A stretch of 23,669 bases of DNA from a virus. The translations under genes were made by a program, and so were the position numbers. Shown here one piece after another: positions 1,461 to 8,784 of this stretch (its first letter is position 1; each line of letters begins with the position of its first letter). The stretch spans positions 1 to 23,669 of IMG/VR virus record IMGVR_UViG_3300021171_000168; one strand, written 5' to 3'. The notes beneath the pieces are model-generated. The model searched no databases, was not told the DNA's origin, and worked only from the letters and a program-made list of their open reading frames with translations.

Positions 1461-1765
1461 CCTATCAAGAGGGGCGCGTTGCTGCGCTCAATCGCTCTCG
1501 TGCGCGCCTGGACAAAAGACTTGCCGAGCTGTCCAGCTTCTCGGTCTTTTCCTATCGGCTGGTGCCTGGGGCGCGAGGCGCGTTCATGGTCTACGACGGG
1601 CACTGGCGTCATGTGGGCCGGTTCACGCCGGAGGGGCAATTTCGGCGATCGACCGTGAAGGGCAGCGAAAAGCTCTTGCCTGGATTCGCGGCGGCGCTCC
1701 GGATGCTGGCGGCTCAGGTCGACGACGCGGAGGCTGATAACCTGCCTTTGGTCGCGTTCGACTGA
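1457..1765 (+). CDS. Hypothetical protein
   Basis: A 102-residue protein not assigned to a family. It begins MTYQEGRVAALNRSRARL. The N-terminal third looks helical and basic; the middle (FSVFSYRLVPGARGAFMVYD) looks like beta strands. The ATG overlaps the stop of the preceding zinc-finger gene, and AGAGGA lies 7 bases upstream. The larger open frame beginning at 1349 overlaps the zinc-finger gene and is not used. No catalytic motif is visible. Confidence 0.75.
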   Translation: MTYQEGRVAALNRSRARLDKRLAELSSFSVFSYRLVPGARGAFMVYDGHWRHVGRFTPEGQFRRSTVKGSEKLLPGFAAALRMLAAQVDDAEADNLPLVAFD

Positions 1766-1776
1766 CAGGGCCGCGC

Positions 1777-1989
1777 ATGGTTCGCGTCCTCTGCGAGGTC
1801 GAGGAAGACGAGCTTGAGACTGACGACGGCGGATCGATCCCTGGCGTGATTGTCGCCTGCTCTCGATGCGGGACGACGACGGAGAGCTACGGGACGAGCG
1901 AGGCCTCGATTAAACGCTGTCTGGCGCTGATGCGCGAGAACTGTCCGGAGGGCGAGCGCAATTGGTATTTCGTCGAGGACATGGAATGA
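1777..1989 (+). CDS. Small Cys-containing phage protein
   Basis: A 70-residue acidic protein. It has a CxxC pair (Cys28, Cys31, in ACSRCGTTTESYG) and two further Cys at 48 and 56, enough for one zinc site. Proteins of this form are frequent in alphaproteobacterial phages and prophages, but I know of no established function. The start is the ATG at 1777; the ribosome binding site is weak. The end overlaps the next gene by 4 bases. Confidence 0.75.
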   Translation: MVRVLCEVEEDELETDDGGSIPGVIVACSRCGTTTESYGTSEASIKRCLALMRENCPEGERNWYFVEDME

Positions 1990-2222
1990 GCGATGAGAAC
2001 AAGGCGCCGCGCAAGCGACCGTTGCGTTGCGCTTGCGGGAGCATGCGGTTCTTCGTCTATGGCGACCGCAACGACGTCGTCTGCGTCAAATGTCGGGCGG
2101 TCTTTCACGTCTATCCGCTGCCGGCGGAGGTGGCGGCCCTGAGAGATCAATCGCTTGGCCAGTTAATTTCGGAAAAGCGCCTAGAAAGGGCGGGTCTGGG
2201 AAAACACCAAGTACAGCGTTAA
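1986..2222 (+). CDS. Zinc-ribbon protein
   Basis: A 78-residue protein. Two cysteine pairs, CAC at residues 15-17 and CVKC at 33-36, are separated by a predicted beta hairpin (RFFVYGDRND), as in a zinc ribbon that binds nucleic acid or protein. The ATG at 1986 overlaps the previous stop, with GAGGA about 7 bases upstream. It is the last gene of the cluster and is followed by a 463-bp control region. Confidence 0.7.
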   Translation: MSDENKAPRKRPLRCACGSMRFFVYGDRNDVVCVKCRAVFHVYPLPAEVAALRDQSLGQLISEKRLERAGLGKHQVQR

Positions 2223-2314
2223 CATCGTCACTTCTCAGAACAAAACCTTTCTGCTTTGCCGACTTTTTCTGATTTGTGACCAGTTTCGTGTAGTAGGCTA
2301 AAATCGAGCCTGGA

Positions 2315-2384
2315 GGCCAAGGACTGGCCTTGCACGATTCGCCAGTGTCATGGGGCCTGGAAAAAAAGACCCCAGTCCTGGGCC
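2315..2384. repeat. 13-bp inverted repeat with one mismatch
   Basis: GGCCAAGGACTGG at 2315-2327 is the reverse complement of CCAGTCCTGGGCC at 2372-2384 except for one position, with 44 bases between. The left arm can also form a local hairpin (AGGCCA/TGGCCT). On the minus strand the right arm is followed by seven T (complement of 2361-2367), which resembles an intrinsic terminator, but no leftward gene here needs one. Confidence 0.45.
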
Positions 2385-2414
2385 AAATGCGGCCCGTTTA
2401 TAGCGGGTTTGTTT

Positions 2415-2432
2415 TGTGGCACAAAAGCCACA
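2415..2432 (+). other. Short hairpin
   Basis: TGTGGC (2415-2420) pairs with GCCACA (2427-2432) around the loop ACAAAA. No T tract follows, so it is not a typical intrinsic terminator. It sits 5 bases before the first phased GGGAC box. Confidence 0.4.
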
Positions 2433-2436
2433 GTTG

Positions 2437-2554
2437 GGGACACGAGGGGGACAATCCTGGGACATTTAAGCTTGTCCAAGCCGATCGACGACTGCGGGAC
2501 ACGCGCGGGACAAACTGGCCGGTCTCGAGGCCGGGGGAGGGACGCCAGAGGGAC
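2437..2554 (+). repeat. GGGAC box array phased at 11 bp
   Basis: GGGAC begins at 2437, 2448, 2459, 2496, 2507, 2539 and 2550. Within each group the spacing is exactly 11 bp (2437-2448-2459, 2496-2507, 2539-2550); the first five copies are GGGACA and the last two GGGACG. One helical turn between direct repeats is the arrangement used by tandem-binding winged-helix regulators of the OmpR/PhoB type and by some replication iterons. An inverted TGTCCC at 2622-2627 and a last GGGACA at 2644-2649 bracket the promoter just downstream. Confidence 0.65.
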
Positions 2555-2583
2555 GAAATGAGCCCTATGTATATAAGGCGTGC

Positions 2584-2606
2584 AAAAACCGTCGCGATGG
2601 CGACGA
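2584..2606 (+). repeat. Promoter-proximal 23-bp motif, copy 1
   Basis: AAAAACCGTCGCGATGG followed by CGACGA. It matches 20 of 23 bases with the copy at 4608-4630; the three differences are transitions. The core GTCGC-GATG-GCGAC is an inverted repeat, and in the second copy the same arms can still pair as RNA through G-U wobbles. Both copies lie just upstream of a predicted promoter and a GGAGTCGAA ribosome binding site. Confidence 0.55.
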
Positions 2607-2613
2607 AAATGTC

Positions 2614-2642
2614 TTGACCAGTGTCCCGCAACGTCTTATTTG
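2614..2642 (+). promoter_or_regulatory. Predicted sigma70 promoter overlapped by GGGACA half-sites
   Basis: TTGACC (2614-2619), a 17-base spacer and TATTTG (2637-2642). TGTCCC lies in the spacer (2622-2627) and its inverted partner GGGACA directly after the -10 (2644-2649). Transcription would start near 2649 and run into a leader hairpin, GGCGC/GCGCC at 2650-2667, before the ribosome binding site at 2674. The layout suggests that a protein binding GGGACA controls the operon. Confidence 0.5.
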
Positions 2643-2685
2643 AGGGACAGGCGCTGCCTACGGCGCCCAAACTGGAGTCGAACCT

Positions 2686-3078
2686 ATGTCACGCGAATCT
2701 GATCTGCGCCCGTTCTCGTTCGAGGATCTGCCCTATCGCAACGGCAAGCGGGTCGAGCCCGAGTCCTGGGGCCCGATCTACACCAAGCCGGCGAAACCCG
2801 GCCGCAAGGTCGCGGTCGACACTTGGCCGACTAACGCCCCGAGCGGGCAGAAGACCGCCCATGTCGACGACGCGAAGTTCCGCGCAAAGATCCGGGCTGA
2901 GTTCGCGGCGCAGGCTAACGCCGATCGTGTCGCCTGGGCGACTGGCAAGCTCTCGCTCGATCGCGTTGGCATGCACGGCGGCATCGTCGAGGCCTACAAG
3001 GCGGCGATGGCGGCCAAGCGCGAGCGGCTTGCTCGCGAGGCTCTGCCGGTGCGGTTCCCGCTCGCGAGGGCAGCATGA
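2686..3078 (+). CDS. Hypothetical protein, first gene of the plus-strand operon
   Basis: A 130-residue basic protein of no family I recognise. It begins MSRESDLRPFSFEDLPYRNG. Residues about 60-125 are rich in Ala, Lys and Arg and look helical. The ATG follows GGAGTCGAAC, the extended ribosome binding site used throughout this genome. The last bases overlap the next start (ATGA at 3075-3078). Confidence 0.75.
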   Translation: MSRESDLRPFSFEDLPYRNGKRVEPESWGPIYTKPAKPGRKVAVDTWPTNAPSGQKTAHVDDAKFRAKIRAEFAAQANADRVAWATGKLSLDRVGMHGGIVEAYKAAMAAKRERLAREALPVRFPLARAA

Positions 3079-3257
3079 CCAAGTGGATCGTGACCTATCC
3101 CGGCATCACTCAAGACCTGATCCGCGCCTTTGACAATGAGTCCGAGGCCAAACAGTTCGCGCGCATCCGCCGGGATCGCGAACTCCACATGTGGCGTCAT
3201 GTCCGCCTGGAAAAGACAGAGGACAATTGCGTCACGATGATCCCGGTCAAGTTCTGA
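3075..3257 (+). CDS. Small hypothetical protein directly 5' of hammerhead 1
   Basis: A 60-residue protein of unknown function (MTKWIVTYPGITQDLIRAFD). The N-terminal strand followed by a NESEAKQFARIRRDRE helix resembles many tiny phage proteins. It starts with an ATGA overlap. Its TGA stop at 3255-3257 is immediately followed by the first base of the ribozyme at 3258, so self-cleavage at 3285 would leave its mRNA with a short 3' tail ending in the stem III hairpin. Confidence 0.75.
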   Translation: MTKWIVTYPGITQDLIRAFDNESEAKQFARIRRDRELHMWRHVRLEKTEDNCVTMIPVKF

Positions 3258-3313
3258 AGGCGAAACGCGGGCCGGAGCCCGCGTCCTGGCGTGATGCGCC
3301 AGCTGATGAGCCT
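3258..3313 (+). ncRNA. Type II hammerhead ribozyme, copy 1
   Basis: All parts of a hammerhead are visible in type II (open stem II) order. Stem II strand AGGC (3258-3261); GAAA (3262-3265); stem III of 7 bp (3266-3272 with 3277-3283) capped by CGGA; the GTC cleavage triplet (3283-3285); stem I of 6 bp (3286-3291 with 3297-3302) with loop TGATG; the core CTGATGA (3303-3309); and the closing stem II strand GCCT (3310-3313). The A of GAAA at 3265 pairs with T3284 as in the canonical structure. Cleavage is expected between 3285 and 3286, giving a 2',3'-cyclic phosphate and a 5'-hydroxyl. It lies between the stop at 3257 and the ribosome binding site at 3320. Confidence 0.93.
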
Positions 3314-3329
3314 ACCAACGGAGTCGAAC

Positions 3330-3671
3330 ATGATGAGTGACGAAGAGAAGCTTGCGGCGGCCGAGGCGCTCGATCGCGCCTATGCGGAGGCCGAGGCCTT
3401 CGACGCGGCGCGCGCGCCGACTCGCACCGTGTACCGGGTCAACTGGGACAACGGCGCCGAGGCGTGCGGTACGTTCCCTGAGACCTACGAGACTGAAGAC
3501 GAAGCGCAACGCGCGGCCGACGCTATCGAAGCGGACAACCGCGCCGAAGGCATTTGGGACGAAGACGGTTGCTGCGAGGTGATCGAGGTCGAGGTGCCGC
3601 TCGTCGATGACGAGACCTGCGACGAGATGGGCGAGCTGCACAAGGCGGCGCTGAATCGCGGGCAGCCCTGA
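3330..3671 (+). CDS. Hypothetical acidic protein bracketed by two hammerheads
   Basis: A 113-residue, strongly acidic protein of unknown function, starting MMSDEEKLAAAEALDRAYAE. A helical N-terminus is followed by a predicted strand segment (TRTVYRVNWDNG), a helix (EDEAQRAADAIEADN) and a strand (CCEVIEVEVPLVDDE). GGAGTCGAAC lies directly before the first ATG. It is the only gene between the two ribozymes: its ribosome binding site starts 7 bases after hammerhead 1 and its TGA (3669-3671) touches hammerhead 2. Cleavage at both sites would release a 412-nt RNA (3286-3697) carrying just this gene. The acidic charge could suit a DNA mimic or inhibitor, but that is speculation. Confidence 0.8.
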   Translation: MMSDEEKLAAAEALDRAYAEAEAFDAARAPTRTVYRVNWDNGAEACGTFPETYETEDEAQRAADAIEADNRAEGIWDEDGCCEVIEVEVPLVDDETCDEMGELHKAALNRGQP

Positions 3672-3725
3672 AGGCGAAACGCGGCGTCTGCCGCGTCTCG
3701 GCGTGATGCGCCGACTGATGAGCCT
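3672..3725 (+). ncRNA. Type II hammerhead ribozyme, copy 2
   Basis: Same architecture as copy 1. AGGC (3672-3675); GAAA (3676-3679); stem III of 6 bp (3680-3685 with 3690-3695) with loop GTCT; GTC (3695-3697); stem I of 6 bp (3698-3703 with 3709-3714) with loop TGATG; CTGATGA (3715-3721); GCCT (3722-3725). Stem I is TCGGCG/CGCCGA here against CTGGCG/CGCCAG in copy 1, and stem III loses one pair. Both strands change together, which supports a selected RNA fold. Expected cleavage is between 3697 and 3698. The next ribosome binding site (3744) lies 18 bases downstream. Confidence 0.93.
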
Positions 3726-3754
3726 ACTCACCAGCAATCTGAAGGAGTCGAGAA

Positions 3755-3928
3755 ATGGACTGCAAAAACATCATTACGCGCCTTGCCGAGATCCGGCGCG
3801 AAACCAAGCGCGCGGAGGCCGCGCTCGGTAACGGTAATTCCACGCGGTGCGCGGCGGTGATGGACGTCATCGAAGTTCACCTTCAGGCGATACGCGCCGA
3901 GCTGGATTCGCGGCGGGTGCGCTCGTGA
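3755..3928 (+). CDS. Small hypothetical protein after hammerhead 2
   Basis: A 57-residue protein, MDCKNIITRLAEIRRETKRA and onward, predicted as two helices around a short Gly/Asn-rich turn. The ATG follows GGAGTCGAGAA. The stop overlaps the next start, a GTG at 3925 (GTGA). No family recognised. After ribozyme cleavage its mRNA would begin with a 5'-hydroxyl and the stem I hairpin. Confidence 0.7.
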   Translation: MDCKNIITRLAEIRRETKRAEAALGNGNSTRCAAVMDVIEVHLQAIRAELDSRRVRS

Positions 3929-4149
3929 CGGTTTGCCGCCTCAAGGTCTACGCGGACCTGAACCCGCGCTATCCGCAAAAGGGGGAGCGGCGCTATGCGC
4001 TCTTTCTGCGCGACGGCTGCGAGATCGAGATGCGCGAGGGCAAGACGTTCACCTCGCGCCGATCGGCCGAGCGGGCGGCTTGCCGGCTGCAAGTCGAGGC
4101 CTCGCTCGCCGAGCTGGGCATCCGCCTGGAGGAGGAGCTGCGCCGATAA
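3925..4149 (+). CDS. Small hypothetical protein
   Basis: A 74-residue basic protein (MTVCRLKVYADLNPRYPQKG) with a strand-rich N-terminus (RRYALFLRDGCEIEMREG) and a helical C-terminus ending in LEEELRR. The GTG start is chosen for the GTGA overlap with the preceding stop; the longer frame from 3847 would overlap that gene heavily. Function unknown. Confidence 0.7.
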   Translation: MTVCRLKVYADLNPRYPQKGERRYALFLRDGCEIEMREGKTFTSRRSAERAACRLQVEASLAELGIRLEEELRR

Positions 4150-4155
4150 AGGAAC

Positions 4156-4193
4156 GCGAGCGGGACGGCGTCGAGCGATCGTCGCCGCCTCGC
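4156..4193 (+). other. Leader hairpin between small genes
   Basis: Outer stem GCGAG/CTCGC (4156-4160 with 4189-4193), middle stem CGGCG/CGCCG (4066-equivalent arms at 4166-4170 and 4183-4187) and inner CGA/TCG closing a GCGA loop. It fills the 73-base gap before the ribosome binding site at 4214. No T tract follows. It contains GAGCGGGACGG, a string also found at 17205-17215 in another leader. Confidence 0.4.
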
Positions 4194-4222
4194 GGGCGCT
4201 CTTGCCCGGTTAAGGAGTCGAA

Positions 4223-4603
4223 ATGGCAATCCGATATTTCAAGGCGACTAACGGTCGTTTCACGATCTTCCGCGCCACCGCCAGCCGCGTTTATGGCAGC
4301 GCGTGGATTCAGTGCGACGCGCACTGCGTAACCTTGTCGGGCTTCTCGATGAAGCCGGCGAGCGCGAGCGTGTACCCGATCCCGGCGATCGAGATCGATC
4401 GGGCGGAATATGAGCGGCTGAACGAGCGCAAGGCGGCGCGCCTCATCCTGGCCGGCGGCAACCCGAAATGGGCCGCGCCGAGCGATAGCTGGGTTCGCAA
4501 CGAGCCAGATCCCGCGATCGTTCAGCAGAACCGCGAGGCGATTGCCAGCAAGGCGCTATCGCGTTCGATCCTGGCGCGCGCCCACCGGGAAGGCGAAAAG
4601 TGA
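4223..4603 (+). CDS. Hypothetical protein
   Basis: A 126-residue protein of unknown function. The first 60 residues look strand-rich (MAIRYFKATNGRFTIFRATA), followed by a helical segment (EIDRAEYERLNERKAARLIL) and a basic C-terminus. The ATG follows GGAGTCGAA. A gap of 94 bases with a motif, promoter and hairpin separates it from the helicase gene. Confidence 0.75.
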   Translation: MAIRYFKATNGRFTIFRATASRVYGSAWIQCDAHCVTLSGFSMKPASASVYPIPAIEIDRAEYERLNERKAARLILAGGNPKWAAPSDSWVRNEPDPAIVQQNREAIASKALSRSILARAHREGEK

Positions 4604-4607
4604 AATA

Positions 4608-4630
4608 AAAAACCGTTGCGATGGTGACAA
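4608..4630 (+). repeat. Promoter-proximal 23-bp motif, copy 2
   Basis: AAAAACCGTTGCGATGG followed by TGACAA, matching the copy at 2584-2606 at 20 of 23 bases. It starts 5 bases after the stop at 4601-4603. Here its right end provides the predicted -35 element of the helicase promoter, so a protein bound to it would sit on the promoter. Confidence 0.55.
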
Positions 4631-4651
4631 GTTTGCAAAAGATGCTATCTA
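4624..4651 (+). promoter_or_regulatory. Predicted sigma70 promoter for the helicase gene
   Basis: GTGACA (4624-4629), a 16-base spacer and TATCTA (4646-4651). Transcription would begin around 4658, inside the first arm of the hairpin at 4654-4677. This would be an internal promoter in the plus-strand operon, allowing the helicase to be expressed apart from the upstream small genes. Confidence 0.45.
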
Positions 4652-4653
4652 AG

Positions 4654-4677
4654 AACCGGGCGCGCCTACGCCCGGTT
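4654..4677 (+). terminator. Terminator-like or attenuator hairpin before the helicase
   Basis: AACCGGGCG (4654-4662) pairs perfectly with CGCCCGGTT (4669-4677) around CGCCTA and is followed by TTCTTTC. It has the look of an intrinsic terminator for transcripts arriving from upstream, interrupted by one C in the T tract. The helicase ribosome binding site follows at 4686, so readthrough control (attenuation) is possible. Confidence 0.5.
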
Positions 4678-4697
4678 TTCTTTCTGGAGTCGAATCA

Positions 4698-6713
4698 ATG
4701 GCAATCACAGTCACGCATGAGGGCGGCCGATATGTCGCCCGGTTCCCCTTCGACTACGCGACCAAGGATTTGGTCAAGGCGGCCGGGTTCCGTTTCGACG
4801 GGGTCAAGAAGGTCTGGTGGACCGACAAGGCCGATATCGCCGCCCAGCTGTCGAAAGATCCGGGCGAGCTAGCCGCGAACCTCACCGCCGAGCGCGAGGC
4901 CAAGCATGCGCGCGACTTGGCGTCGATCGAGGCCTCCAGGGCGATTGACGCCGCGATCGATATCCCGGCGCCGGCCGGCTGCGCCTATGATCCCTACCAG
5001 CTCGCCGGCATCGCCTATGCGATGAGCCGTCCAGGCGTGCTCGTCGGCGACGAGATGGGTCTCGGCAAGACGATCGAAGCGCTGGGCATCATCAACGCTG
5101 ACCCCACCATCGAGAACGTGCTGATCGTCTGCCCAGCGACGCCCAAGCTGAACTGGAAGCGCGAGGCCAAGAAGTGGCTCGTGCGGCCGATGACGGTCGA
5201 GATCGCCAACGGCGCCGGGTTCCCGGTCCGCGCGAACGTCGTCATCGTCAATTACGAACAGCTGGGGAAGTTCCGCGCCGCGATCGACGCGCGCGCCTGG
5301 GACCTCATCGTCTGCGACGAATGCCATTATCTCAAGAACCCCAACGCGCAGCGCACCGCCAACGTTTTCGGCAAGTTTGAGAAGGACAAGAATACGGGCG
5401 CATGGGTCCAGACCATCAAGCCGATCGCGGCGCGGCGGAGGGTGTTTTTGACCGGGACGCCGTTTTTAAACCGCCCGATCGAGCTGTGGCCACTGCTCAA
5501 GGCTCTGGACCCGCAGGGGCTCGGCAAGAACAAGATGGCGTTCGCGAAGCGCTACTGCGCCGCCTATCAGAGCGGCTATGGCTGGGATTTCACGGGCGCG
5601 AGCAATCTCCCCGAGCTGCAAGCTAAGCTCCGCGCCTCGATCATGATCCGCCGGCTCAAGAAGGACGTCTTGAAAGAGTTGCCGGCGAAGCGCCGCCAGA
5701 TCGTCGTCATCGCGCCCGAGGGCCGAGAGGCGATTGCGGCGGTCAAGCGCGAGAACGCGGCCGAGGCCGCCGCTGAGAGGCGCCTGGAAGCCCTCAGGGT
5801 AGCCGTTGAGTTGTCAAAGGCCTCTGAGGACCCGGCCGACTACAGGCGCGCTGTGGAGGCTCTGCAAGAGGCGGCGAAGGTCGCTTTCGAGGAGATCAGC
5901 CGCGTGCGCCACGAGGTCGCGGTCGCCAAGATCCCGCAGCTGATCGAGCACCTCGAAAATTGCATCGAGAACCAGGGCAAGGTCGTCACGATGGTCTGGC
6001 ACCATGACGTGGCGAACGCCCTCAAGGCGCATTTCGGCGACGCCAGTGTGATGGTGACCGGCGAGACGGCGCAGGGCTCGCGCATGGCCGAGGTGGACGC
6101 CTTCCAGACTGACCCGCGCAAGACGCTATTCATTGGCAGCATCAAAGCCGCCGGGGTTGCGATCACTCTGACGGCGGCGAGCCTCGTCGTTTTCGGCGAG
6201 CTGTGGGTTGTTCCTGGCGACATGACCCAGGCCGAGGACCGCGTGCACAGGCGCGGCCAAAACGAGTCGGTTCTGGTGCAGCATCTCGTGCTCGACGGGA
6301 GCTACGATCAGCGTGCGAGCGAGATCCTCGTCGAGAAGCAAGCGAACTTGGACGCGGCCCTCGACAATCAGGAACGGCTGCCAGATGTCGCCATAGTCGC
6401 GCCGCCGGCCGATAAGGCGGGGTCTGAGGCCACGCGGACGGTCACCCAGGCGCAAGTTGCGGAAGAGGCGGTGAAGATAAGCCCAGAGGCGGTTGTGGCT
6501 GTGCACGCGGCTCTGCGCGCGCTGGCGGGCATCTGCGATGGCGCGGCCTCGCTTGACGACATGGGTTTCAACCGCATGGACACGCGCATCGGCAAAAGCT
6601 TGGCCATGCAGGACCAGCTCTCGCGCAAGCAAGCGGTACTCGGTCGCAAGATCGTGTCCAAGTATCACAGGCAGCTCCCCGCAATGCTGATGGAGGTTAT
6701 CCGCGCCGGCTAA
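4698..6713 (+). CDS. SNF2-family DNA helicase/translocase
   Basis: A 671-residue superfamily 2 ATPase that would translocate on double-stranded DNA or anneal/remodel forks using ATP. Visible motifs: motif I GDEMGLGKT near residues 117-125, DECH (motif II) at 207-210, LTGTP (motif III) at 251-255, and AEDRVHRRGQ (motif VI) at 512-521. This is the SNF2/SMARCAL1-like set often found in phages. The first 50 residues (GFRFDGVKKVWWTDKADIA) form a small N-terminal domain seen in related phage helicases. Residues about 345-410 are a charged helical, probably coiled-coil, insertion between the lobes; the last 100 residues are unassigned. The start follows GGAGTCGAA. It probably assists replication or recombination together with the primase and RecT modules encoded further on. 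Confidence 0.9.
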   Translation: MAITVTHEGGRYVARFPFDYATKDLVKAAGFRFDGVKKVWWTDKADIAAQLSKDPGELAANLTAEREAKHARDLASIEASRAIDAAIDIPAPAGCAYDPYQLAGIAYAMSRPGVLVGDEMGLGKTIEALGIINADPTIENVLIVCPATPKLNWKREAKKWLVRPMTVEIANGAGFPVRANVVIVNYEQLGKFRAAIDARAWDLIVCDECHYLKNPNAQRTANVFGKFEKDKNTGAWVQTIKPIAARRRVFLTGTPFLNRPIELWPLLKALDPQGLGKNKMAFAKRYCAAYQSGYGWDFTGASNLPELQAKLRASIMIRRLKKDVLKELPAKRRQIVVIAPEGREAIAAVKRENAAEAAAERRLEALRVAVELSKASEDPADYRRAVEALQEAAKVAFEEISRVRHEVAVAKIPQLIEHLENCIENQGKVVTMVWHHDVANALKAHFGDASVMVTGETAQGSRMAEVDAFQTDPRKTLFIGSIKAAGVAITLTAASLVVFGELWVVPGDMTQAEDRVHRRGQNESVLVQHLVLDGSYDQRASEILVEKQANLDAALDNQERLPDVAIVAPPADKAGSEATRTVTQAQVAEEAVKISPEAVVAVHAALRALAGICDGAASLDDMGFNRMDTRIGKSLAMQDQLSRKQAVLGRKIVSKYHRQLPAMLMEVIRAG

Positions 6714-6727
6714 GGACTGCCAGCGCG

Positions 6728-6768
6728 CGCGCCTCGACGTTTCGGGGCGCGGTCGCGGGAAGTTCCCG
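6728..6768 (+). other. Two adjacent hairpins before a ribosome binding site
   Basis: A 10-bp stem, CGCGCCTCGA (6728-6737) with TCGGGGCGCG (6742-6751), including one T-G wobble, has the loop CGTT. A 13-base palindrome CGGGAAGTTCCCG follows at 6756-6768, and the GGAGTCGAA site starts 3 bases later. No T tract, so it is better read as an mRNA-stabilising or processing element than as a terminator. Confidence 0.45.
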
Positions 6769-6780
6769 GAAGGAGTCGAA

Positions 6781-7116
6781 ATGATCAATGAACTGCTGAT
6801 TACAGGGCGCGTCGAGATCAAGCGCTATCCGAAAGAGCGCGGCGCCGACATGCATCAGAACATGGTGCGTGTCGGCAAGAGCAGCCCAGAGGGCTGGATG
6901 CTGCAATTACGCGGCAAGACGTCGATGGCGACGGTCGATTATCTGTCGGCCGACGCTGCGCGCGCGCTGATCGCCAAGCTTGAAGTGATCATCGCCGCGA
7001 TCGAGCCCAAGCCGGAAACGCCGCCTCGCTTCAACATGTTCGCGCGCGCTGATCGCAAGGAACCATGGTTTTGGCCGCTCCCAGACGAGGACGAAGAGCG
7101 CGGATCGGAGGGTTAG
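6781..7116 (+). CDS. Hypothetical protein
   Basis: A 111-residue protein (MINELLITGRVEIKRYPKER). A predicted beta-rich N-terminus is followed by a helix (LSADAARALIAKLEVIIAAI) and a Pro/acidic tail. Function unknown. The start follows GGAGTCGAA directly. The next gene starts 3 bases after the stop. Confidence 0.75.
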   Translation: MINELLITGRVEIKRYPKERGADMHQNMVRVGKSSPEGWMLQLRGKTSMATVDYLSADAARALIAKLEVIIAAIEPKPETPPRFNMFARADRKEPWFWPLPDEDEERGSEG

Positions 7117-7119
7117 ACA

Positions 7120-7602
7120 ATGACACTGGATGAAATGATTGGGCTCGCCAGGGATCAAGCCATGCGCGTCATGGTTGGCACCAAGAACGAGATACAGCCC
7201 TCGTGGCTGCTGGTCACCGACAAGGGCGTCGAGATCTTTATGACGCCGTGGGGGAACGATCGCGAGAAGCATCTCGTGATCGAAACCATGCGCGACATCA
7301 TGCGCGAGAAGCGGTGCACCGCGTACAGCATGCTGACCGAGGCGTGGATGGCGTGCGCCACGCCCGAGGAGACGAAGAGCGGTGACTACAGCGGACTCCC
7401 GCCAAGCCAGCGCGCTGACCGTCAAGAGTGCGTCGTGATGATGGCCGCCGACAAGGCCGGCGATTCTCGCTACCAGAGCTTGGAAACGGTGCGCGACGCC
7501 GAGGGCAAGTGCATCGAGCTGCGCCAGCTCTCAACGGTCGAGGACCGATTCACGGGCATCTTCGACAACCTCCTGATGGATGACCGCAGGAGGGCGAATT
7601 GA
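7120..7602 (+). CDS. Hypothetical phage protein
   Basis: A 160-residue protein (MTLDEMIGLARDQAMRVMVG). Two alpha/beta segments are apparent: a strand-helix part (PSWLLVTDKGVEIFMTPWG) and a later one (ECVVMMAADKAGDSRYQSLE). Proteins with this layout recur in alphaproteobacterial phage early regions; no function is known to me. Its stop overlaps the TTG start of the next gene. Confidence 0.75.
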   Translation: MTLDEMIGLARDQAMRVMVGTKNEIQPSWLLVTDKGVEIFMTPWGNDREKHLVIETMRDIMREKRCTAYSMLTEAWMACATPEETKSGDYSGLPPSQRADRQECVVMMAADKAGDSRYQSLETVRDAEGKCIELRQLSTVEDRFTGIFDNLLMDDRRRAN

Positions 7603-7880
7603 GGCAGCGCTACACGATCGATCTGGCGCGGACCATCAGCCAAATCGCGACCATCGAGGTTACGGCGGAGAGCCTGACCGAGGCGCAGGACAAGGCGCGC
7701 GCGATGGCAGTGCGCCCCAATTTCCCGTGGGTCGATGAATCTCCGCTTCTCTACTCTGAGCAGGGGCGCGTCACCAAGGTCATCTGTCACGCCGGGGAGG
7801 TGCCCGATGAGCCGGTCGAGCCCGATCGCTGGAAGGCGAATCCTTCGCCTAACCGCATCATCAATGAGCCGGAGATATGA
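7599..7880 (+). CDS. Hypothetical protein with TTG start
   Basis: A 93-residue protein (MRQRYTIDLARTISQIATIE). The TTG at 7599 is supported by AGGAGG 6 bases upstream and by the TTGA overlap with the previous stop. A strand-helix N-terminus is followed by a proline-rich acidic C-terminus. No family recognised. Confidence 0.7.
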   Translation: MRQRYTIDLARTISQIATIEVTAESLTEAQDKARAMAVRPNFPWVDESPLLYSEQGRVTKVICHAGEVPDEPVEPDRWKANPSPNRIINEPEI

Positions 7881-8158
7881 GCCGGATTCGCCGTCGCCAG
7901 TATCCCAAGCATAGCGGCGACGCCTACGACCGATTCCTGACCGAGCGATCGAAGGGCGAGGACGGCGAGTTCTCGTTCGAGAAGTTCGTCGCGCTGATGC
8001 GGTCGCTCGACTGCCCGGAGGATTTCGTCCCGGCCGATGGAAACAACGGCACCAAGCGCATGACCGCCGGCATCCTGCTGCGGGGTTGGTTCGGCGACGG
8101 CAAGCTCCGGTTCAAAGACGGCAGCGTCGTCCAGTTGGATCTGGAGGACCCGGCATGA
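7877..8158 (+). CDS. Hypothetical protein
   Basis: A 93-residue protein (MSRIRRRQYPKHSGDAYDRF). Basic N-terminus, helical middle (FSFEKFVALMRSLDCPEDF), strand-rich end (KLRFKDGSVVQLDLEDPA). ATGA overlaps join it to both neighbours, so these genes are probably translated as a coupled series. Function unknown. Confidence 0.7.
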   Translation: MSRIRRRQYPKHSGDAYDRFLTERSKGEDGEFSFEKFVALMRSLDCPEDFVPADGNNGTKRMTAGILLRGWFGDGKLRFKDGSVVQLDLEDPA

Positions 8159-8553
8159 GGTTCTGTAAGCCGACGAAAAAGCAGCAGGAGGGCTATCGAA
8201 AATGGGTCAAGAAGCTGCCGAAAAAGGTGCGGGCGGTCGCCGAGCGTTTCGACATCTGGACGTTGTACCGCCTGAAATCGAGCGGCGACCGGGTGATGCT
8301 TCAGTCGTTCGATGGGGACGGGACGCTGACCGTAGCCGTCTCCGGCAAATTTAATCTGGTGATAGCCGAGCGACAGGTGTTCGGGGTCCCTCCCGACGAT
8401 CTGGAGGAGTGCGACTTGCCCGCGCCGGATGAAAAACTCGGCGCGCTCATGACGGGCAAGGAGATCGTCGACAATTTGGACGCGATGCGCGTCCTCGTTC
8501 GACCGGACCTGTGGGTGATGACAGAGGACGGCAAGGCCGTCCGCAAGCAATGA
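8155..8553 (+). CDS. Hypothetical protein
   Basis: A 132-residue protein (MRFCKPTKKQQEGYRKWVKK). A lysine-rich helical N-terminus is followed by a strand-rich core (RVMLQSFDGDGTLTVAVSG, FNLVIAERQVFGV). The start at 8155 is chosen for the ATGA overlap; the frame is open further upstream to 8086 but that part overlaps the previous gene. No family recognised. Confidence 0.7.
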   Translation: MRFCKPTKKQQEGYRKWVKKLPKKVRAVAERFDIWTLYRLKSSGDRVMLQSFDGDGTLTVAVSGKFNLVIAERQVFGVPPDDLEECDLPAPDEKLGALMTGKEIVDNLDAMRVLVRPDLWVMTEDGKAVRKQ

Positions 8554-8565
8554 CAAGGAGTCGAA

Positions 8566-8784
8566 ATGATGGACGTCTCACGCATGCGCCGAGGCTGGCG
8601 CCTGCGCCTTACGGACAATGAGTTCGAGATGTTGCGCGAGGCGGTGAATCGCGGCCTCGCGACGATCGACGATGCCCAGCGCGAGGCTCTGCCCTGGAAG
8701 ATCCGCAAGGTGCTCACGCGCGATGGTCGCTGGGAGTTGCCGCACGGTCCGCTAATCCCTGATGACGATCGAAGGCCAGCATGA
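8566..8784 (+). CDS. Small hypothetical protein
   Basis: A 72-residue basic protein, MMDVSRMRRGWRLRLTDNEF, with a predicted helical pair (EFEMLREAVNRGLATIDDAQ). The start follows GGAGTCGAA with only 12 bases between it and the previous stop. Function unknown. Confidence 0.7.
   Translation: MMDVSRMRRGWRLRLTDNEFEMLREAVNRGLATIDDAQREALPWKIRKVLTRDGRWELPHGPLIPDDDRRPA

Follow-up and report, generated by a model that had tools for sequence, protein, structure and literature searches.

The locus analysed here raises the question of why a phage carries a hammerhead motif that starts on the base immediately following a stop codon, and what such a placement would do to the message concerned. The window, i.e., the whole stretch of DNA analysed, is a linear IMG/VR virus record of 23,669 bases and represents a fragment of an uncultivated phage. 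On its plus strand, gene B (3075–3257, 60 aa) ends with a TGA at 3255–3257, which directly adjoins a first type II hammerhead, HH1 (3258–3313, predicted cleavage between 3285 and 3286). Gene C follows (3330–3671, 113 aa), with its ribosome-binding site GGAG at 3320–3323 within the linker GGAGTCGA. Its TGA stop (3669–3671) adjoins a second type II hammerhead, HH2 (3672–3725, predicted cleavage between 3697 and 3698), and gene D (3755–3928, 57 aa) is preceded by the ribosome-binding site AAGGAG at 3742–3747. All of these features are encoded on the plus strand. The three gene products belong to no known family, and in case of genes B and C neither a Pfam nor a PHROG match was obtained. HH1 and HH2, in the same orientation, thus bracket a single gene, each starting one base past a TGA. 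The original prediction had described one element, starting on the base past the TGA of gene B and with 3286 as the first base after the cut. HH1 is located exactly there, but the second copy, HH2, had been missed. With HH2 present, the single element becomes one of two, and cleavage at both would set free a message of one gene. The stop codon of gene B is considered real, since the codon differences from its relative in contig L135 are all synonymous (7 synonymous, 0 non-synonymous). Upstream of the ribozyme-bearing genes, a weak promoter match of the sigma-70 type and a hairpin resembling a terminator occur at 2276–2304 and 2391–2409, with a match count near chance.

In case of HH1, every conserved hammerhead element was located in the order originally claimed, which along the plus strand reads AGGC, GAAA, stem III, GTC, stem I, CTGATGA, and GCCT. 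Stem II is formed by AGGC and GCCT (3258–3261 with 3310–3313), followed by GAAA at 3262–3265 and by stem III with eight pairs including A15.1-U16.1 (3265–3272 with 3277–3284). The GTC cleavage triplet occupies 3283–3285, stem I pairs CTGGCG with CGCCAG (3286–3291 with 3297–3302), and CTGATGA is situated at 3303–3309. The catalytic core (CUGANGA, GAA(A), and NUH at the cleavage site) is exact in both copies. HH1 and HH2 each fold alone into a hammerhead (−29.7 and −27.7 kcal/mol, respectively, with z of about −2.7), and folds as well as covariation indicate the type II permutation for both, with stems I and III closed by loops and stem II open.

The Rfam covariance search, proposed originally as a check, gave a divided answer. 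At the gathering threshold no entry was returned for the window, while in E-value mode RF02276 (Hammerhead_II) was matched by HH2 with 32.6 bits (E 3.2e-4) and by HH1 with 32.1 bits (E 4.5e-4). Both copies lie below the gathering cut-off of 37 bits, which is a curation threshold and not a biological feature; the ribozyme at the gene B junction of L135 passes it with 39.3 bits. For an independent covariance model, 54 phage hammerheads were used, none of which came from the window or its relatives. This model assigned 59.5 bits (E 8.5e-15) to HH2 and 56.1 bits (E 7.9e-14) to HH1, and the next-best match in the window reached 14 bits. In the 54-sequence alignment of the model, stem covariation amounted to 228 double-change cells compared to 79 after shuffling, and 0 of 500 shuffles reached 228. 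The corresponding values for the window together with six related phages, 18 copies in all, are 34 and 7.5, from an alignment that was fitted to the structure. Part of the core is prescribed by the retrieval pattern; conservation of the core was therefore scored only on 126 model hits outside the reach of this pattern. Positions G12, A13, A14, C3, G5, A6, and G8 are unchanged in all 126, while the catalytically free N7, the sole hammerhead core base free to vary, is altered in 67 of them. Such a contrast between a fixed core and a variable N7 is what selection on catalysis would predict. The independent model, the covariation, and the invariant core give strong support to the type II hammerhead assignment of HH1, in agreement with the original prediction; HH1 and HH2 are new members of an already known kind of ribozyme.

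Pairing of loop I with the 3' tail into a pseudoknot is common, yet not universal, in type II hammerheads and makes many of them fast. In the whole set, at least 4 loop I to tail pairs were found for 53% of the sequences, compared to 18% with shuffled tails. At least 3 such pairs occur in a fraction of 0.88 of the long-loop members versus 0.68 in shuffles, whereas no excess was observed for the short-loop members. Moreover, the fourth stem II pair is associated with short loops (39 of 43 versus 38 of 91, Fisher p 3e-8). Two type II classes can be distinguished, one with long loops and the pseudoknot, the other with short loops, a stem II of 4 bp, and no pseudoknot. The latter includes the window copies with their 5-nt loop I and 4-bp stem II, for which the pseudoknot was rejected, as their loop I can form only 3 and 2 Watson-Crick pairs with the 3' tail. 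Due to the lack of the pseudoknot in the short-loop class, its activity is not transferable from the pseudoknotted class. The window copies may employ an uncharacterised contact in place of the pseudoknot, or they may cleave slowly.

On the basis of sequence, HH1 and HH2 are probably independent, cis-acting type II hammerheads that split a multi-gene message. Each ribozyme would fold as soon as the plus strand transcript is made and would cut itself after the GTC. The upstream piece would end about 28 nt past the stop of gene B with the stem III hairpin and a 2',3'-cyclic phosphate. Provided that both ribozymes cut at the predicted sites, the middle piece would be a message of 412 nt with gene C alone (3286–3697, plus strand), and the third piece would begin with gene D. 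The downstream pieces would each begin with a 5'-hydroxyl and the paired stem I hairpin, followed after a short spacer by a ribosome-binding site of their own. In this way a polycistronic message would be converted into RNAs of one or a few genes with a hairpin at each newly formed end, and effects on RNA stability may follow. A position directly past the stop would keep the ribozyme outside the translated sequence, leave the upstream message with a minimal, hairpin-ended 3' end, and keep the translation of neighbouring genes apart.

The tight join to the stop codon had been taken originally as suggestive of mRNA processing. Processing is indeed the best reading and an already published proposal (PMC3088659; review PMC6155905), but the join is not peculiar to this locus: the same placement past stops recurs in many phages and in prophages of sequenced bacteria, and judged from sequence, type II hammerheads of the sampled phages and prophages follow it as a rule. 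For these counts, non-redundant sets and mechanical open frames as gene calls were used, and a stop counted only if the open frame closed by it had 40 codons or more. Among the matches listed, 88 of 128 viral and 49 of 76 bacterial genome sites have a stop at −1 to +5 nt from stem II. In comparison, the same interval contains a stop for 4.5–4.7% of random same-strand positions and for 10.5% of AGGCGA sites outside ribozymes. Again among the matches listed, stem II follows the stop at a median distance of 3.5 nt in viruses and 1 nt in genomes, and the ribosome-binding site follows stem II at 14 and 12 nt, respectively. Compactness alone as the cause of the stop adjacency is weakened; since this asymmetry of the upstream and downstream gaps is also present in the short-loop class, which lacks the pseudoknot tail, compactness is presumably not the whole cause. 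With stem II close after the stop and a bigger gap to the next ribosome-binding site, the rule narrows the question of the role to gene-end processing and makes a link to translation testable.

Such a link would exist if a terminating ribosome covered stem II and the GAAA and blocked cutting until it leaves, so that cleavage would be timed by translation of the upstream gene. A terminating ribosome covers roughly 9–12 nt beyond the stop, which exceeds the median gap of 1–3.5 nt to stem II. A gap of at most 9 nt was observed for 77–87% of the sites among the matches listed, compared to the 12–14 nt to the ribosome-binding site, and the asymmetry kept in the short-loop class points in the same direction. 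Short gaps, however, are favoured anyway in compact phage genomes, and keeping the ribozyme outside the reading frame accounts equally for the sharp lower bound. We regard translation-timed cleavage as an unlikely alternative.

The relatives of the locus bear on a further explanation. Gene B is conserved in L122/L135 (100%) and L123/L136 (95%), two 78-kb phage contigs, and in both of them a hammerhead with rebuilt stems follows at the same junction, which reads TGA A|GGC in one and TAA|GGC in the other. While the hammerhead after gene B is kept in the window, L135, and L136, three different genes are situated downstream. Conversely, homologues of the N-terminal part of gene C in L136 and L137 and gene D in L135 are each located directly downstream of a hammerhead; where genes C and D are found elsewhere, the hammerhead is still upstream but the upstream neighbours differ. 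The homology block common to the window and L122 stops at 3328, just 5' of the start codon of gene C. All 18 copies in the phage group of the window lie 0–7 bases past a stop codon, and most of these ribozymes are followed by the linker GGAGTCGA with its ribosome-binding site. Relatives of gene C were obtained only via DNA and synteny of related phages; a protein scan for them returned none. Megablast against named phages yielded no relative of L135 and none of the window except for one 41-base match. The constant hammerhead, the changing neighbours on either side, and the homology limit at 3328 would suit ribozyme and linker acting mainly as a shared junction for the exchange of single-gene cassettes, with cleavage being secondary. 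The compensatory stem changes and the invariant core, however, indicate selection on RNA fold and chemistry. Homologous exchange alone would need neither, and a recombination boundary as the main role appears slightly less likely still than timing by the ribosome. A wider combination, in which cleavage reports on, or is timed by, termination at the upstream gene, translation-coupled, protein-free mRNA processing operates across many phages, and ribozyme plus ribosome-binding site form an exchangeable gene-cassette boundary, is considered as doubtful as translation timing itself.

Two strong hairpins past a stop codon also resemble 3'-end structures, and the elements might thus be plain, non-catalytic protective hairpins or terminators at gene ends. 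This is very improbable, as core bases located outside the hairpins are invariant, and no terminator-like site was found on the plus strand at HH1 or HH2; the terminator reading was rejected on both grounds. Although CTGATGA alone is common, with 16 CTGANGA matches in the window versus about 13 expected, chance resemblance is practically negligible and is refuted by the independent-model E-values of about 1e-14 and 1e-13 for the two copies, and a hammerhead is conserved at the gene B junction in relatives.

Processing of the message by the two ribozymes, the preferred reading, has precedents among known systems. Perreault et al. 2011 described hammerheads that flank single prophage genes and proposed transcript processing; clustered type II hammerheads self-cleaved in the test tube and, after cloning, also inside E. 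coli cells (PMC3088659). The window copies share with Hammerhead_II (RF02276, PMC3088659) the open stem II, the closed stems I and III, the identical catalytic core, the phage or prophage setting, the occurrence of several copies around individual genes, and the proposed transcript processing. They differ from RF02276 by scores just below the Rfam cut-off, the 5-nt loop I, the 4-bp stem II, and the absence of the typical pseudoknot. In the clusters of the Agrobacterium tumefaciens prophage ardA region and of Azorhizobium, several hammerheads likewise divide a polycistronic phage transcript; self-cleavage was reported in vitro for both and for Agrobacterium also in E. coli (PMC3088659). The window, in contrast, represents a different phage with different genes. 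A systematic abutment on stop codons is absent from the main text of PMC3088659, in which the term “stop codon” occurs 0 times. As new we consider the stop-codon rule with its controls, its novelty being judged against the open-access literature, the gene exchange across hammerheads among the related phages, and the dense array of a cultured phage.

This phage, Streptomyces phage Janus (NC_054660.1, L260), contains type II hammerheads at 11 sites within about 7 kb (1483–8699), none of which is annotated in the record NC_054660. Nearly all of them are located in gaps between annotated genes, some directly past a stop. Most lie about 0 to 47 nt past the preceding stop; the copy at 2907–2987 is far from the preceding annotated stop. 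Compared to the two copies of the window, the Janus array is far denser and mostly of the long-loop class. Since Janus is cultured and carries 11 copies, function is testable there. According to a 2017 review, the role of prokaryotic hammerheads is an open question in the field (PMC6155905), for which Janus offers a laboratory system.

Stretches of about 8 kb with 3 to 11 hammerheads each were also observed in Streptomyces, Glycomyces, Saccharothrix, and Lentzea (L181, L197, L198, L199, L226, and L238), and we presume that these represent prophages. With 66 bits, the type II hammerhead at 7237–7300 of L216 is very strong; this contig is binned as a Euryarchaeota MAG, the archaeal label being that of the bin. 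In the relative L139, two tandem, near-identical hammerheads are located at about 3052–3118 and 3418–3484 (reversed coordinates), and the core of one copy is broken, with CTCGATGG replacing CTGATGAG. From its sequence this copy is apparently a decayed duplicate, and as one of the two cores is broken, loss of a copy seems to be tolerated there.
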